Assembly: GCF_011765625.1 (NCBI RefSeq) | Contig: NZ_CP050313.1 | Span: 1,794,501-1,858,500 of the forward strand | Reading direction: 5' to 3' | DNA: 64,000 nt | DNA from: Shewanella aestuarii | GTDB lineage: Bacteria; Pseudomonadota; Gammaproteobacteria; Enterobacterales; Shewanellaceae | Shown: positions 37,484 to 44,275 of the stretch, piece after piece | Position numbering within the stretch: position 1 is the first letter of the stretch | How the letters are laid out: every line of letters starts with the position of its first letter | Notes under the pieces: model-generated | Told to the model about the DNA's origin: nothing | Databases searched by the model: none | Seen by the model: the letters and a program-made list of their open reading frames with translations, nothing else | Position numbers and translations under genes: made by a program

Positions 37484-37573
37484 GGAGGGATGGCAGAGTG
37501 GTCGAATGCACCGGTCTTGAAAACCGGCAACGGTTTACCCCGTTCTAGGGTTCAAATCCCTATCCCTCCGCCA
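37484..37573 (+). tRNA. serT: tRNA-Ser (anticodon TGA)
   Basis: A 90-base class II tRNA with acceptor stem GGAGGGA/TCCCTCC, anticodon stem CCGGT/ACCGG with TGA at 37518-37520 (reads UCA and, if modified to cmo5U, other UCN codons), a long variable arm, the TTCAAAT T-loop, and an encoded CCA end. CmoAB, encoded in this window, would act on this tRNA. Its 3' end serves as the insertion site of the island that follows. Confidence 0.97.
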
Positions 37574-37577
37574 TATT
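37548..37577 (+). repeat. attL: tRNA-Ser 3' end, left direct repeat of island
   Basis: 30 bases (GGGTTCAAATCC...CCGCCATATT) identical to 44012-44041. It covers the T-arm, the acceptor 3' strand, CCA and four further bases; identity ends on the right at 37578, where the next base differs. Confidence 0.95.
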
Positions 37578-37579
37578 TT

Positions 37580-37620
37580 AAAGCAAAAAAGCCATTGATA
37601 ATCAATGGCTTTTTTGCTTT
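37580..37620 (+). terminator. Terminator after tRNA-Ser (island copy)
   Basis: A perfect 20-bp inverted repeat (AAAGCAAAAAAGCCATTGAT with its complement) with a T6 tract. A related hairpin occurs at the same distance after attR, so the island appears to carry its own tRNA terminator. Confidence 0.9.
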
Positions 37621-37671: not shown

Positions 37672-39072
37672 ATGTACTTATTTCGCGCCACAAATTGTAC
37701 CTATTACACCCGCATGGTGTTGCCTGCTTATCTGCGTGATAAAGGCTTCTCTGCCGACATCAAAGTATCACTGCTTACCAAACAACGCTCTATCGCTATT
37801 GGCCGAAACCTAGTGATAGCGGGTATCTTACGACCATTAATCAGCAACTTAACGCCACAATCAAAGCCTGATGAGTTTAAAGCTCAGGTTAATGCGTTGA
37901 TTAATGATGCCCGAGCATGCTTTGTTGGGGTAACAGATACGCTTGATGATAACGCCAAGCCAGTGCGGGAAGTCACGCAATTGATACCTACTCGACCAAC
38001 GCAAGTAGCACATAATACAGCGACATATGACAATTATCCCTATAACGATAATCGGGTATCGTTAAATAAAATAGAGAATAAAAGCAGTTTACATTCAATG
38101 GCTAATGTAAGTTTGTCTGACGCATTATCTAAATTTATTACCTCCAAACAAAAGCAGTCTGTCTCAGCCTTAACGGTCAAGCAGCTTAATCAACGTATAG
38201 GTCACTTTATTGAACGCACTCATTTAGATGATGTCAGCGCGATAACCAGTGCTGAAGCAATGGAATACAAAGACTGTTTATTAGAGGAGGGCAGAAGCCA
38301 TAAAAGTAACAAAGATTACTTAGCTGCTGTGTCGCAATTTTTTAAATGGTGCAAGTTAATGCGCTACACCGCTGAAAACCCATTTGATGAAGTCAAGCTC
38401 ACTAAACCCGCTAATCAGGCTGGACACGATTTAGCGCGTTTGCGCTGGCAACCTCACCAGATTAAGCAGGTTTTAAACTCCACCGCCTTTATCGACAAAA
38501 GTCAGGACTTTAAATGGATAACGCTACTCATGATGTATGGCGGCTTACGCCCAGCAGAAGCCTGTCAGTTGCATATTCATGATATTGAAGTCAAAGACGG
38601 TATCGCCTTAATGAACATCACTAACGCCAGTGCAGGCCAACAACTCAAGACAGAACAATCAAAACGCAAAGTACCGATACACCAGCAACTGATTGAACTT
38701 GGTTTTATGGATTTTGTAAAAAAACGCGCTGACCGGACATCAAAAGCAAAGCCGTTATTTCATTATCAACCCAGTCATGATGGTAACTGGTCACATACCT
38801 TTTGCCGTGAATTTGGCAAATTACTCGACCAACTTAACTTCACAGCAGGCAAGCGGCCAACAGCTTACTCATTCAGGCACACTTTTATTGATGAACTTAA
38901 ACAAGGACAAATAGAAGAATCATTAGTGGCACAAATTGTCGGTCATGCTTATCAAAACATCACTTACGGACGTTACGGCAAAAAGTTTGATGTCAAAACA
39001 CTCAAACCCGTCATAGATAGTATTCAATTTGAGCTAATTATTTCGCCAGAGCGCTTAAAATTAACCCATTAA
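37672..39072 (+). CDS. int: Tyrosine recombinase (site-specific integrase)
   Basis: A 466-residue phage-type integrase that would insert and excise the island at tRNA-Ser. The N-terminal 45 residues (YLFRATNCTYYTRMVLPAYL) form a short DUF6538-like module; a SAM-like core-binding domain follows (about 155-250), then the catalytic domain with Arg in YGGLRPAEAC, His-Arg box YSFRHTF, and VGHAYQNITYGRYG with the nucleophilic Tyr. All catalytic residues appear present, so it may be active. It starts 99 bases after the tRNA and points inward. A shortened, decayed copy of its first 45 codons is found just beyond attR. Confidence 0.95.
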   Translation: MYLFRATNCTYYTRMVLPAYLRDKGFSADIKVSLLTKQRSIAIGRNLVIAGILRPLISNLTPQSKPDEFKAQVNALINDARACFVGVTDTLDDNAKPVREVTQLIPTRPTQVAHNTATYDNYPYNDNRVSLNKIENKSSLHSMANVSLSDALSKFITSKQKQSVSALTVKQLNQRIGHFIERTHLDDVSAITSAEAMEYKDCLLEEGRSHKSNKDYLAAVSQFFKWCKLMRYTAENPFDEVKLTKPANQAGHDLARLRWQPHQIKQVLNSTAFIDKSQDFKWITLLMMYGGLRPAEACQLHIHDIEVKDGIALMNITNASAGQQLKTEQSKRKVPIHQQLIELGFMDFVKKRADRTSKAKPLFHYQPSHDGNWSHTFCREFGKLLDQLNFTAGKRPTAYSFRHTFIDELKQGQIEESLVAQIVGHAYQNITYGRYGKKFDVKTLKPVIDSIQFELIISPERLKLTH

Positions 39073-39539: not shown

Positions 39540-39668
39540 CCCACTTGAAAAGTGGGATGACATAGTAACCCGGTACGCTCCTATCCCACTTTTGTTCCAA
39601 AAGGTCGGATAGGAGCTACGGGCAAGGGGAGTACCCCTTTGAACCCAACAGCCACATGCTGCGCATGT
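39540..39668 (+). other. Cluster of four hairpins (structured DNA/RNA, oriT-like or ncRNA candidate)
   Basis: Four successive inverted repeats lie in 129 bases: CCCACTT/AAGTGGG (39540-39556), GCTCCTATCC/GGATAGGAGC (39577-39616), AAGGGG/CCCCTT (39624-39639) and ACATGC/GCATGT (39654-39668). The density and higher GC content contrast with the AT-rich flanks. It resembles nicking or mobilisation regions in general style, but no relaxase is present to support that; a structured RNA is equally possible. Confidence 0.5.
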
Positions 39669-39722
39669 TAAAAATCAAAAGCGTTAAAGACAAAAGAAGC
39701 ATCACCACTTTAATATAAACTG

Positions 39723-39742
39723 TACTGTTTTTATGTACAGTT
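39723..39742. promoter_or_regulatory. LexA-type SOS box
   Basis: TACTGT-TTTTATGT-ACAGTT fits the gammaproteobacterial LexA consensus (CTGT-N8-ACAG with TA flanks). It lies inside the island about 320 bases before the SIR2 gene and 60 bases before a perfect palindrome. It predicts DNA-damage-induced transcription within the island. Confidence 0.65.
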
Positions 39743-39803
39743 ATATGGTGTATCATCAATTTATGATAAAAATGGATTGAAAATCGTTCTTTAGTTGCAT
39801 CGT

Positions 39804-39855
39804 ATTAAAGCTAATAAAATCATAATAATATGATTTTATTAGCTTTAATTTTTAT
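39804..39855. terminator. 21-bp perfect palindrome, terminator-like
   Basis: Arms 39804-39824 and 39829-39849 (ATTAAAGCTAATAAAATCATA and its complement) pair perfectly around a 4-base loop, then TTTTTATT follows. The stem is AT-rich, so besides terminating a short transcript from the LexA-box region it could be a protein-binding site. Confidence 0.6.
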
Positions 39856-40062
39856 TACCGTCTAGGCATATCTTACGTTACGCGCAACCTCGGTTTGTTT
39901 TTGTCTGCTTGATACAATTAATTGCTTTACATCAATAAGATAGCAAATGTAGGATGTTATTAATCAATAAGTTAAGGGACTGGCTTTACTGCGCAAGCCC
40001 TTCAATAAGCGTTATGGCTCTGGGCTAACTTCTCGCATTAATTTGTAATTTTAGGAACGTAA

Positions 40063-42795
40063 ATGGATGTAACAAATAAAGAGCACTTTAAAACAATTCG
40101 TAAAGCGATTGAAAACAATAAACTTGCAGTGTTTGTTGGCTCTGCCGTGTCTTTTGATTCAAATCTCCCATCATGGGGAGAGCTAATTAGTTTAATGAAA
40201 AGTGCTTTGGAGTTACCTAGAACGGATGATTATTTGAAAATAGCAGAACATTACTATCTTCAATTTGGAAGAAATACGTATTACAGCAAAATCAATGACT
40301 TTTTCCCATCGGATAGTAAGCCAAATCAACTTCATGAACTGCTTCTCTCTCTAAAGCCACAGCATATAATAACGACAAATTGGGATGATTTACTTGAAAA
40401 GTCGATAAGCTCTAACGGAGACTTGTATTTTACGGTAGCAGATGATCATGAACTCGCTTCGTCACCAAGTTCACAACTATTGGTAAAAATGCATGGTGAT
40501 TTGACTCATCGAAATATAGTGTTCAAAGAATCTGATTATTTGGCTTATACAGATAAATTTCCATTAATTGAAAATTTCATCAAAAGCCTTTTTTCTACTC
40601 ATGTTGTAGTTTTTGTTGGTTACAGTATAAGTGATTATAATTTAAATCAGGTTTTAAGCTGGATAAGAAATAGAACGCAAGATGCTCCACCTGCTTTTAC
40701 AATTTTAACCGAAAGTAAAATAACATTATCGGAATCAAATTATTTAAGAGAGAAAGGTGTATATCCCCTATTGTGTGAGGAAAATTCTAACAATATAGCG
40801 GAATACCCATCATTATCAGCTAAGAGTCAGAGGGTAGCTGAAACAATAGCGAAAATAACCCACCCTGAATCAACAGAAATGCTCGATATAATAGGTGAGA
40901 TTGCCACTGACATCTCTAGCTGGGAAACTGTTTACCCTTCGGTATTTGTTCAACTTTTTAAAAATAGGTTCAATACAACTGAAATTAATAAAATTTATTT
41001 TGACTCGAGTCAAAATGTGATTGTTTACAACCTGAGTGAAGAAGAGAAGGAATATAACCGAGGTAAAATTAGAGAAATTAGAAGACAACTCTTAAAAATA
41101 TTACAAGTTATTCCTATTTCTGAAATTCGGCTTTCATTTGAGATTCGTAAATACTATCGAGTAAAAAATTTATCTAAATTTGAATTTGTTGACGAGTATA
41201 CATCTTTCAATTTTACTCGTATCACTGATCGTATTTCTACAGCGCCAGTTAACTTAAATGAAAATCATGATAAGCATTTTCAAAATGCATACGACAATTA
41301 TTTTTTAAAAAAGTTGCATGTAGCAAGAGAAACATTTACGCATGTTGCTAATATGTATTTTTCTAAGTCCTTATTTATTAAAGCACTGATCTCTTCATTT
41401 AATAAAAAACAATTATGCTTGGGTGAAATACCATGGGATCTTGCTGAAGATTTTTTTGAAACATCAATGGAAGAGCAATTATCAAGAAATGATAATATCT
41501 CAGAACTAATTGAAAAATTTCCTAAAAGCATTGTGAATAGGCAAAAGCCTTTATTTCATGGATTAGATTCCAATAACTCTTTTCTATTAGAGCGATTCAG
41601 AGACGTATCTAATCTTAGTAGAGAAATAGATGATGAAATCGATAGCATAAATAATGGTTCGATGGTTTTTAGTAATAAGCTTGCCTCCATGTATAACCAA
41701 ATTCGCTGTATGGTACTGTTTATAACTAAAAATAAAATTACGACATTATATTCCTCTGATTACAAAAATATTTGTAATATTGCTTTTGAAGCAATAATAA
41801 AAAGACAATGTTTAGATAAGAAAGTCGATCTTGATGTGCTTCTTTCTTATAGCGCGATAATTTCGTTTAAAGAAAAAGACCTTGTTAAGTTTTTATCTGA
41901 TACATTAAATGAAGATAAATCATTAGAAATATCAGAAGAAACAATTGAGTATATTTTCCTTGTTTTGGATAACTCAATCCAAACAATTTCTTCGGGAAGC
42001 TCATTCTACTTAAAAGAACATTGTATTAAAGTTTGGTCTAATGCACTTATCTTACTTTCTTATGCAAAACACTCCGAAGTGACGCTCAAAGAAATAGTAA
42101 AACGTTTAACGGCCTCATTTGATACGAGTAGGTGGTTCCTTTTATCAGAAGCGGTAAATAGATTTATAGTCTTTCAAGTTAATAGGTACGGCTCCTCATT
42201 TTCTGTGGCGGATTTAAAGCTACTTTTTGATAAGCAAGTTGATAAAATCAATTCAAACGAAAATATCCCAATTCAAGAGCGAGGTCAGCTTTTCTCTAAC
42301 CTTTTATACTTAATCAGTGATAATGAAAATGATACAAGCAGCTTTTTTGAAGGAAATAGACAGTTAGAAAGATTTATTTCAAATATCACATCGATGGAAT
42401 TTAAAGAGCGTTTAAGAGCTATAAATGGATTTGTATTCGTAATCCATTCATTAGCTGTTGGAGAGCTAAAAGAAAAGATTTCAGAGTTGTTGAAAAAAAC
42501 ATTCGAAGAATCTAAAAAAGAAGAGTTCTCTGAATCATCAATTATGTTTGGCTTAGATTTATATAATGTTGGAGTTTTATCGGAAACCGAATTGATGTTT
42601 GTAATAAACAAACTGAAACTCAAAGTTGATGAACATATTCAAAAAGGTAGTACTACAAGCAACTACTCAATAATTAACGAGCAACTAGGAAAAATCAAAA
42701 AAGAACAGTTAAAAGGCTTTGAAGGTACGGTTGAAGGAGTTGTGAAATTAACAGAAGCAATGAAAAATAGCTTTAAACGGTTCAACGAGCCATAA
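40063..42795 (+). CDS. SIR2-domain protein, candidate anti-phage NADase
   Basis: A 910-residue protein with an N-terminal SIR2-like domain (about residues 10-220) and a long helical C-terminal part with no motif I recognise. NAD-site features: VGSAVS (about 25-30), Asn106 in HIITTNWDDL, His144 in VKMHGDL, and FVGYSISDYN (184-193); this is the SIR2_2-type arrangement found in stand-alone defence sirtuins (DSR-like) and Thoeris ThsA-type effectors. Such proteins deplete NAD+ on phage infection; that function here is inferred. The gene is more AT-rich than its surroundings and lies on a tRNA island beside a toxin-antitoxin pair. AGGAA stands before the ATG. No partner gene (TIR, helicase) is adjacent, so the C-terminus would be the sensor. 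Confidence 0.88.
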   Translation: MDVTNKEHFKTIRKAIENNKLAVFVGSAVSFDSNLPSWGELISLMKSALELPRTDDYLKIAEHYYLQFGRNTYYSKINDFFPSDSKPNQLHELLLSLKPQHIITTNWDDLLEKSISSNGDLYFTVADDHELASSPSSQLLVKMHGDLTHRNIVFKESDYLAYTDKFPLIENFIKSLFSTHVVVFVGYSISDYNLNQVLSWIRNRTQDAPPAFTILTESKITLSESNYLREKGVYPLLCEENSNNIAEYPSLSAKSQRVAETIAKITHPESTEMLDIIGEIATDISSWETVYPSVFVQLFKNRFNTTEINKIYFDSSQNVIVYNLSEEEKEYNRGKIREIRRQLLKILQVIPISEIRLSFEIRKYYRVKNLSKFEFVDEYTSFNFTRITDRISTAPVNLNENHDKHFQNAYDNYFLKKLHVARETFTHVANMYFSKSLFIKALISSFNKKQLCLGEIPWDLAEDFFETSMEEQLSRNDNISELIEKFPKSIVNRQKPLFHGLDSNNSFLLERFRDVSNLSREIDDEIDSINNGSMVFSNKLASMYNQIRCMVLFITKNKITTLYSSDYKNICNIAFEAIIKRQCLDKKVDLDVLLSYSAIISFKEKDLVKFLSDTLNEDKSLEISEETIEYIFLVLDNSIQTISSGSSFYLKEHCIKVWSNALILLSYAKHSEVTLKEIVKRLTASFDTSRWFLLSEAVNRFIVFQVNRYGSSFSVADLKLLFDKQVDKINSNENIPIQERGQLFSNLLYLISDNENDTSSFFEGNRQLERFISNITSMEFKERLRAINGFVFVIHSLAVGELKEKISELLKKTFEESKKEEFSESSIMFGLDLYNVGVLSETELMFVINKLKLKVDEHIQKGSTTSNYSIINEQLGKIKKEQLKGFEGTVEGVVKLTEAMKNSFKRFNEP

Positions 42796-43309
42796 CACAT
42801 ATGAGCCTTTCGCCAGTCAATATTCGAGCTTGATTGTTAAGAGAAGGTATTTGACAGCCTTTGCACTCAAATACCTTTAGTAACCAAGATGGTCAATCAA
42901 CAAATTCATCTACTTCGTCTGTCATTTAGCTGTCAAATCATCGTGCTTTTATAAAATAGCAGCATGCAAACACATAGAGGCGCTCTTAGTGCGATTTCTT
43001 TATTCATAAAGAATGCTGCCTGACGCTTTTCAATCCGTTGAAATATCAGGGGCACTACGACTAAATGGATTTAGGAGGTAGGGCTGCGCAGGAAGCCAAA
43101 GCCGAGACATTTATCGGTTAACCCTAAGATGGCACTATTCAAGTCAGAGGTGCTTTTTGCACAGTTAGTTTCAGGCTCATTTAAGGTGTAAACGACATAG
43201 GTGGTTACATTGTGATTTTTCAATTAGTTTGCCTTTGTTTATACTTAACTCTGTATGGTGCCGTGAGTTTGGTACTATAATTGACATTTTCACAATAAAG
43301 GAGTTCTAG
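42796..43309. other. Non-coding island segment between SIR2 gene and antitoxin
   Basis: 514 bases without a supported gene. A perfect 11-bp stem-loop at 42844-42877 (AAGGTATTTGA/TCAAATACCTT) follows the SIR2 stop and may end its transcript. The rest contains GCAGCAT...ATGCTGC (about 42959-43019) and other loose repeats, possibly remains of lost cargo. A TATAAT at 43276-43281 is the likely antitoxin promoter. Confidence 0.5.
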
Positions 43310-43480
43310 ATGAATAAAAAAGTTGAAGCTTATGGTGTTCATGCCGTTGTGCGACCTAAAATCACTGCAACTAAAGAACTTGATTTATCTGGGATTTATG
43401 GTCAACAAATAGTAAAGTCAGAGACGAAGCTTGCTTTAAGAACACATCGAAAGACGTTCGAGAAATTGGCTGATATGTAA
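43310..43480 (+). CDS. Antitoxin of Doc-type toxin-antitoxin pair
   Basis: A 56-residue basic protein (MNKKVEAYGVHAVVRPKI to RKTFEKLADM), too short for the usual cutoffs. The ATG follows AAGGAG by seven bases and the stop shares one base with the Doc start (TAATG), the usual translational coupling of toxin-antitoxin operons. It is not like phage P1 Phd at a glance, but small antitoxins of this type commonly precede death-on-curing toxins. It should bind and silence Doc and repress its own promoter; the TATAAT at 43276-43281 lies beside the imperfect repeat TATGGTGCC/GGTACTATA. Confidence 0.82.
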   Translation: MNKKVEAYGVHAVVRPKITATKELDLSGIYGQQIVKSETKLALRTHRKTFEKLADM

Positions 43481-43872
43481 TGGAAATTATCTGCTTTCCA
43501 TTTGAGCGTGTAATCGAAATCAATACATTCATTTTAGAAACCGAACCTGGGATGAAAGGGCAAATCGATGTCTCAAAATTACAAGGAGCATTAGGCCGTA
43601 TAGATAATGCAATCGTGTACGATGGCTTAGATGATGTGTTTGAAATAGCAGCCAAATATACGGCAAGTATCGCTATTGCTCATTCTTTGCCTGATGCAAA
43701 TAAACGTACTGGCTTGATTGTTGCGCTTGAGTATTTGTCGTTGAATGATTTTGAATTGACGAGTGATAACACACTGTTAGCTGATGCTGTAAGAGATTTA
43801 GTGCTTGGTGTTATAAATGAAACAGATTTCGCTGATATATTGTATGCACAATACAACCAAGAAAATCAGTAA
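43480..43872 (+). CDS. doc: Doc/Fic family toxin (death-on-curing)
   Basis: A 130-residue Doc-type toxin. The Fic core motif reads HSLPDANKR (residues 68-76), keeping the catalytic His, the acidic metal ligand and the NKR anion hole, though Leu replaces the usual Phe and Ala the usual Gly. P1 Doc phosphorylates EF-Tu and stops translation; the target here is assumed by homology. It is coupled to the small antitoxin upstream and lies 140 bases inside attR. In the island it may act as a stabilisation module and could also contribute to phage defence. Confidence 0.9.
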   Translation: MEIICFPFERVIEINTFILETEPGMKGQIDVSKLQGALGRIDNAIVYDGLDDVFEIAAKYTASIAIAHSLPDANKRTGLIVALEYLSLNDFELTSDNTLLADAVRDLVLGVINETDFADILYAQYNQENQ

Positions 43873-44011
43873 TTATGTTTTCAATTGACAACCTAACCGA
43901 TAAAGACTTAAATGTCATATATCGACTACGAATGTTCACTACCTGAAAGGTGATTTTTCGATTAGTTATTGATTTTAATGTATTTTAAATTTTAATTATG
44001 GCGAATTCCTT

Positions 44012-44041
44012 GGGTTCAAATCCCTATCCCTCCGCCATATT
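44012..44041 (+). repeat. attR: right direct repeat of island
   Basis: 30 bases identical to 37548-37577, the 3' end of tRNA-Ser. Immediately after it comes a hairpin homologous to the one after the tRNA, as expected at the right junction. Confidence 0.95.
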
Positions 44042-44052
44042 AAATACGAAAG

Positions 44053-44085
44053 AAGCCGTTGATTATCAACGGCTTTTTTGTTTTT
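44053..44085 (+). terminator. Terminator hairpin after attR
   Basis: Stem AAGCCGTTGA/TCAACGGCTT (44053-44062 with 44066-44075) then T-rich sequence. It is a diverged version of the hairpin at 37580-37620 and would terminate the tRNA if the island were absent. Confidence 0.8.
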
Positions 44086-44275
44086 GGTGTTAGAGAGACT
44101 TTCCAAGAGGATTGACTCAGACAATGTACCCGCTTTTCACATGAGCAGAGCCCCCAATAATCTGTATTTCACACGTATCTGTTTAGCCAAATCGTTACGC
44201 GATAAAGTCTTTCCTTTTGATATTAAAGTTTCTTTGTTGACTTGCGACAGAGCAGAAGCCATTTCTTGATAAAAA
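44086..44275 (+). pseudogene. Relic of a second integrase gene (5' fragment)
   Basis: The frame after 44135 encodes NNLYFTRICLAKSLRDK then FPFDIKVSLLTCDRAEAIS, which matches the first 45 codons of the island integrase (YYTR...LRDKGF...DIKVSLLT...AI). The preceding bases also match: GACTCAGACAATGTAC here against GACTGAGACATATGTAC there. The reading frame is disturbed near the old start and stops at 44269; the rest of the gene is gone. It marks an older element at the same tRNA. Confidence 0.85.

Follow-up and report, generated by a model that had tools for sequence, protein, structure and literature searches.

DSR2 of Bacillus subtilis is a single-chain anti-phage protein of 1005 amino acids (aa), in which an N-terminal SIR2 domain is followed by a helical middle and a C-terminal region. 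The accessible part of PMC10981675 describes the roles of its residues W59, N133, D135 and H171 and names the phage tail tube protein as its trigger; in the accessible part of PMC11087589, the DSR2 segment with L495, L497 and L498 is reported to sit in a pocket of this tail tube protein. Here, we describe a protein with the same layout, encoded in a 64,000-nucleotide stretch of the Shewanella aestuarii genome (contig NZ_CP050313.1, positions 1,794,501 to 1,858,500), which we refer to as the window. Its gene is an open reading frame (ORF) on the forward strand at window positions 40063-42795, which starts with ATG and encodes 910 aa. On the basis of the ORF call and of Pfam, homologue, profile and fold comparisons, we regard this protein with considerable confidence as a DSR2-type defence sirtuin, that is, an anti-phage sensor and killer in one protein, from a separate clade that has diverged from DSR2 itself.

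The ORF represents a genuine protein family and is not a chance reading frame, since at least 50 relatives of nearly full length, with 34-91% identity and a coverage of at least 96%, were found among the 120 best of 397 database matches. Where their sources are named, the 50 closest relatives come from Gram-negative bacteria, among them Vibrio, Aeromonas, Methylophaga, Hafnia and Rahnella. The only Pfam match above cut-off in the 910-aa protein is to SIR2_2 (PF13289; residues 101-235, E 1e-25), with no such match in the rest of the chain. It falls into the predicted NADase domain of the SIR2 type (residues 1-268, positions 40063-40866, forward strand), whose Asn106 and His144 are invariant in all 43 rows of alignment A1, consisting of the window protein and 42 of these 50 relatives (8 were omitted by hand), and in all 96 rows of alignment A2, which is enlarged by 53 of the 68 rows P0053-P0120. 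These results bear out an earlier reading of this DNA, made from its letters alone and called the original prediction below, according to which the catalytic Asn and His and the other NAD-site residues are intact. In a joint alignment, W38, N106, D108 and H144 of the window protein occupy the columns of DSR2 W59, N133, D135 and H171, and DSR2 N202, R233 and Y260 are kept as well.

The original prediction had recognised no domain in the C-terminal portion of about 690 residues. Comparisons with hhalign and of the fold show instead that residues 269-910 (positions 40867-42792, forward strand) are a strongly diverged DSR2 middle and sensor region, not a novel domain. In hhalign comparisons of the C-termini, the direct alignment scored 97.0% over 489 columns (E 9.1e-11; residues 368-891 of the window protein paired with DSR2 402-937) and that with a sibling class of the window clade 99.6%, as against 0.1% for a control with reversed DSR2. 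In a structure comparison, of which the best 50 entries were considered, the overall fold was common to residues 1-910 of the window protein and DSR2 (PDB 8wyd, 8z18, 8k98). The protein is thus built from a SIR2 NAD-site domain and, behind it, a helical middle and sensor region whose overall fold is that of DSR2, in agreement with the earlier proposal of a DSR-type protein that unites sensor and NADase in a single chain. Intermediates from the sibling class provide a further connection: when only C-termini were searched with hmmsearch, the A1 profile found P0054 (E 1e-31) and the A2 profile found P0200 (3e-20) and P0173 (1.8e-14); the A2 profile had no match to P0151, the database record of B. 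subtilis DSR2, itself. A search with the C-terminus only returned 31 proteins, of which 30 have a SIR2 domain and the remaining one is named as partial; a DSR2-like sensor region joined to another effector was not found among them.

Sequence similarity to DSR2 amounts to 33% identity in the SIR2 domain and about 13-16% in the aligned C-terminus. In a single-sequence search, B. subtilis DSR2 is the best solved relative (E 5e-40), with a match limited to the SIR2 part; a clade profile and a wider profile match DSR2 up to profile positions 687 (E 1.9e-51) and 689 (E 6e-82), respectively, with the SIR2 part supplying much of both scores. Several observations weigh against the assignment to the DSR2 type. 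The profile-to-sequence alignments with DSR2 stop near position 690; in plain hmmsearch, the A1 C-terminal profile finds no DSR2 sequence, and the DSR2 C-terminal profile in turn misses the window protein. Linking the C-terminus to DSR2 hence requires profile-profile comparison, intermediates or the fold, and even the full-length superposition has a root mean square deviation (rmsd) of 5-6 Å. The best PADLOC model for the window protein is ThsA, over the SIR2 part only. At the residue level, the adenine-stacking Y282 of DSR2 corresponds to K254, its tetramer pair Y71/D188 (accessible part of PMC10981675) to E50/S157, and neither I259 nor the loop residues W143/Y148 are kept. Given the conserved N202, R233 and Y260, a tetramer may form by another route. 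The original prediction had named a close match to an already characterised family as the finding that would speak against it; such a match exists in fold, to DSR2, and is missing in sequence.

The phylogenetic position of the window protein is likewise separate. A tree was computed from 62 rows picked by hand, with a quick method and SH-aLRT support only; in it, the 18 rows of the window clade (support 100) stand apart from the 13 DSR2 rows (95) and group with the sibling class of 15 rows (99), so that the window protein does not lie inside the B. subtilis DSR2 clade. Furthermore, the tube-gripping L495/L497/L498 segment of DSR2 faces a gap in all 18 clade rows of the joint alignment, which is weak in this region, and hhalign likewise places a gap there. 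Because of the unmatched residues, the missing segment and the separate clade, these sequence comparisons argue for the name 'DSR2-type' and not DSR2. As an aside, record P0151 has Ala at positions 133 and 171 and is, for this reason, a mutant construct.

The SIR2 gene is rare and patchily distributed. Its own genome (4.47 Mb) contains one match to the protein, and 12 of 394 sampled genomes of the order have a profile match at E 1e-20, with a whole-length match in the window's own genome only; two others (G253, G259) match in the SIR2 part and in a separate C-terminal stretch. A scan of genome contigs yielded only two distant relatives among 55 candidate stretches, and 2 phage and 295 plasmid records matched, none of them spanning 80% of the query. 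Viral contigs contain 27 related loci, five of them whole-length (L095-L099, 39-63% identity). The homologue at L099 (40% identical) belongs to a P2-like prophage, where it has a gpA-like replication protein on one side and portal and terminase genes on the other, a position that corresponds to the gpA-gpQ hotspot described in the accessible part of PMC9122126. Tail-fibre genes are found near the homologues at L095 and L097, the latter also with endolysin and methylase genes nearby, and an integrase near that at L098. The hotspot homologue is better contextual evidence for defence than the tRNA island on which the window gene resides. The original prediction had counted this island as such evidence, and we reject it in that role, as the cargo of sister islands is mixed (see below).

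By analogy with DSR2, which is activated by the tail tube protein, is inhibited by DSAD1 and acts through NAD+ hydrolysis and abortive infection, we would expect trigger binding, an oligomer, NADase activity and protection from phages. The protein would be an inactive oligomer at rest; a phage protein made in infection would bind its C-terminal helical region, the resulting movement would be transmitted to the SIR2 cores and lead to NAD+ hydrolysis, and the infected cell would arrest or die before phage release. Because the tube-gripping segment of DSR2 has no counterpart here, the window protein probably responds to another phage protein or to a tube protein that docks differently. A related reading, possible yet doubtful in our view, is that the window protein is DSR2 proper in function and binds the tail tube protein via a surface other than the B. 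subtilis segment. It would fit the full-length fold and the known trigger of DSR2; the gap at the contact segment, seen in every aligned clade row and by hhalign, and the separate position in the tree speak against it. We consider it very improbable that the protein, as a defence sirtuin, has a sensor unrelated to that of DSR2, the two being alike only as one all-helical solenoid is to another; the hhalign scores of the C-termini and of the reversed control are to be set beside this idea.

Some sources name relatives of the protein deacylase or deacetylase, and it might accordingly be an NAD-dependent deacylase or a housekeeping sirtuin devoid of a defence role. This is highly unlikely, as the SIR2_2 class and the NADases ThsA, DSR2 and KomC are its nearest solved relatives among the best 50 entries, and as the gene is patchily distributed, with a full-length match in just one of 394 sampled genomes of the order (its own), and is carried on viral contigs. 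Downstream of the SIR2 gene and on the same strand, at a distance of 514 bp, lie a 56-aa ORF (43310-43480; no Pfam match, antitoxin-like by position only) and, overlapping it by one base, the start of a Doc/Fic toxin-like protein of 130 aa (43480-43872; TIGR01550, E 4.8e-14, above cut-off). Their arrangement could suggest that SIR2 and this pair act as one system. We rejected this reading as extremely unlikely: the Doc unit occurs without SIR2 in the islands L078 (98.8% DNA identity) and L088 (84.8%), and no Doc-like neighbour was noted around L095-L099, where ORF starts were inspected by eye only. The homologues in these five loci have other neighbours and no conserved partner gene was seen, in line with the earlier claim that the SIR2 protein has no adjacent partner; a single-protein system of the DSR2 type is the reading we retain.

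Other described SIR2 systems were also considered and dismissed. The 478-position model of Thoeris ThsA matches only over 5-226, covering residues 4-218 of the window protein in its SIR2 part, and no SLOG domain was found in the Pfam scan. DSR1 is comparable as a one-protein SIR2 defence system, but its model NF041818 (1263 positions) scores 16.4 bits on the SIR2 part against a cut-off of 1400. Avs5 (AVAST V, SIR2-STAND) similarly combines a SIR2 effector and a sensor within one chain; it superimposes with an rmsd of 25-26 Å over 351-356 aligned residues, and Pfam detects no STAND domain. As for SIR2-HerA, SPARSA and Kongming, the neighbours of the window gene are an integrase, the 56-aa ORF and Doc, and their partner proteins were not found beside SIR2. 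PADLOC 2.0 and NCBIfam 20 assign no DSR2 label even to B. subtilis DSR2 (P0151) or a Priestia relative; these receive ThsA, PDC-S25 and other SIR2-part models in one library and below-cut-off models in the other. Since DSR2 itself goes unlabelled, DSR2-like proteins are easily overlooked as 'SIR2 family protein'. The present results extend the DSR2 architecture to a large group of proteins of about 840-960 aa, and the missing tail-tube segment in the aligned clade rows makes trigger diversity in the DSR2 family directly testable. In the literature, surveyed by titles and abstract starts with few subscription journals, we found among the papers listed no account of the window clade or of the islands with attI-like sites described below.

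The SIR2 gene is located on a small mobile island at tRNA-Ser(UGA) (37484-37573; ARAGORN, Rfam RF00005), with all features on the forward strand. A repeat search revealed a 76-nt direct repeat whose left, attL-like copy spans the 3' end of the tRNA (37545-37620) and whose right, attR-like copy (44009-44084) is 86% identical. The left repeat is followed by a tyrosine integrase of 466 aa (37672-39072), which matches Phage_integrase, with XerA/XerD-like models below cut-off and no IntI model listed. Between integrase and cargo lies the non-coding block NCR1 (39540-40016), conserved in an alignment of related islands, and a second non-coding block, NCR2 (42796-43309), defined by DNA comparison, extends from the SIR2 stop codon onward. 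In an Rfam scan of the island, only the tRNA scored above the gathering score. The stretch of the SIR2 gene has a G+C content of 31%, compared with about 38-43% in its surroundings. Among 97 genomes of the genus, 14 have relatives of the integrase and 25 have full or partial matches to NCR1, the own genome included in both counts.

For comparison, 17 regions were chosen by hand from the integrase matches, and many of these related islands show the integrase, then the conserved non-coding block, then unrelated cargo. L078 has the same island frame with other genes in the place of SIR2, and NCR2 directly follows the stop codons of SIR2 as well as those of two unrelated L078 ORFs. Of ten sister-island cargo proteins scanned with Pfam, five had no match; three scored above cut-off, namely an FMN-binding protein, a DUF4145 protein and a type I restriction-modification-like methylase. 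The Pfam-matched cargo is of mixed function, and a dedicated defence island is therefore rejected.

NCR1 ends in what resembles an orphan integron attI site (39920-40016; core G/TTATGG with the G at 40011), recognised by its likeness to intI-side sequence. By eye, the block end consists of an imperfect inverted repeat and CAATAAGC(T)GTT[AG] or a near variant; the 12 loci compared were selected by this motif, which is thus present by construction, and 11 of them, all except L082, also align across the preceding block. Minimum-energy folds of the block end are not uniform among loci. The 3' part of NCR1 matches sequence adjoining intI in congeners, as well as other scattered places, and its end with the core (39920-40016) is 80-96% identical to sequence beside intI matches at seven places (L173-L179), chosen since NCR1 and intI matches lay close together there. 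Five of these (L173-L177) have an ATG-started ORF of 319-330 aa where IntI matches; in L178, IntI passes the model cut-off in a frame of 314 aa, and L179 has a fragment below that cut-off. As end and core are common to the seven intI places, the most likely reading is that NCR1 carries a copy of the attI of this genus at its end. An intI above the model cut-off is present in 55 of 97 genomes of the genus, and none of eight matches in the own genome (G000) exceeds the TIGR02249 cut-off.

The attI core (G/TT, 40011-40014) adjoins the cargo, with the SIR2 start codon 52 bases downstream of the core G. Of 11 cargo junctions inspected on the right (L083 and L085 being identical), 7 have GTTAATC or GTTAAAC as their end ahead of the right block common to the islands, and attC-like TAAC...GTTA pairing was seen by eye at the L079, L082, L083 and L085 junctions. 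This ending is missing at the window junction after Doc and in L078, L080 and L088. No canonical attC was seen after SIR2; the attC scan lacked discriminating power, with 3.75 matches per shuffled sequence and none at the junctions of L079, L082, L083 and L087, which resemble attC by eye. The fold of NCR2 has a z of -2.24 and its L078 counterpart piece one of -1.53; the ends of NCR2, about 400 nt apart, appear by eye able to pair (TAACACATATGAGCC / GGCTCATTTAAGGTGTAA). Judged from these sequences, the left side supports cargo insertion at attI, which the right side leaves unproven. The site is reminiscent of attG, the non-classical integron insertion sites described in the accessible part of PMC12901181, in that cargo lies beside an integron recombination core away from intI; it differs in resembling the genus's own attI and in that its tRNA island carries an unrelated integrase. 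Tentatively, and as an idea that we ourselves deem unlikely, the DSR2-type gene could be a cassette captured at an orphan attI on the tRNA-Ser island, which has no integron integrase of its own and would act as a mobile landing pad for cassettes that integrases of other strains insert in trans, the protein having exchanged its tail-tube segment for the ability to recognise another phage protein. The attI-bearing islands suggest a route for defence and other single genes between integrons and tRNA islands.

A few further observations concern the island. Upstream of the cargo, two perfectly inverted arms of 21 nt around a 4-nt loop (39804-39849) look terminator-like, their symmetry by eye not being kept in sister islands; a promoter scan gave no more than chance (3 against 3.4 expected). 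An 18-nt direct repeat, GTGATTTTTC[AG]ATTAGTT, flanks the Doc unit (43212-43229 and 43950-43967). The exact empty-site pattern occurred in none of the 97 genomes of the genus. Just past the right repeat, positions 44078-44269 contain the remnant of a second integrase start; over 44101-44259 it shares 89% identity with the start region of an integrase ORF of 439 aa in L078, and islands were probably stacked at this tRNA-Ser. Finally, integrase relatives at L057, L058, L066, L068, L069, L073, L074, L075 and L077 (44-48% identical) contain one or two TGA codons inside the match. These matches probably just extend past the stop, because at L090, one of the TGA-containing integrase places, the ORF is continuous over 439 aa.
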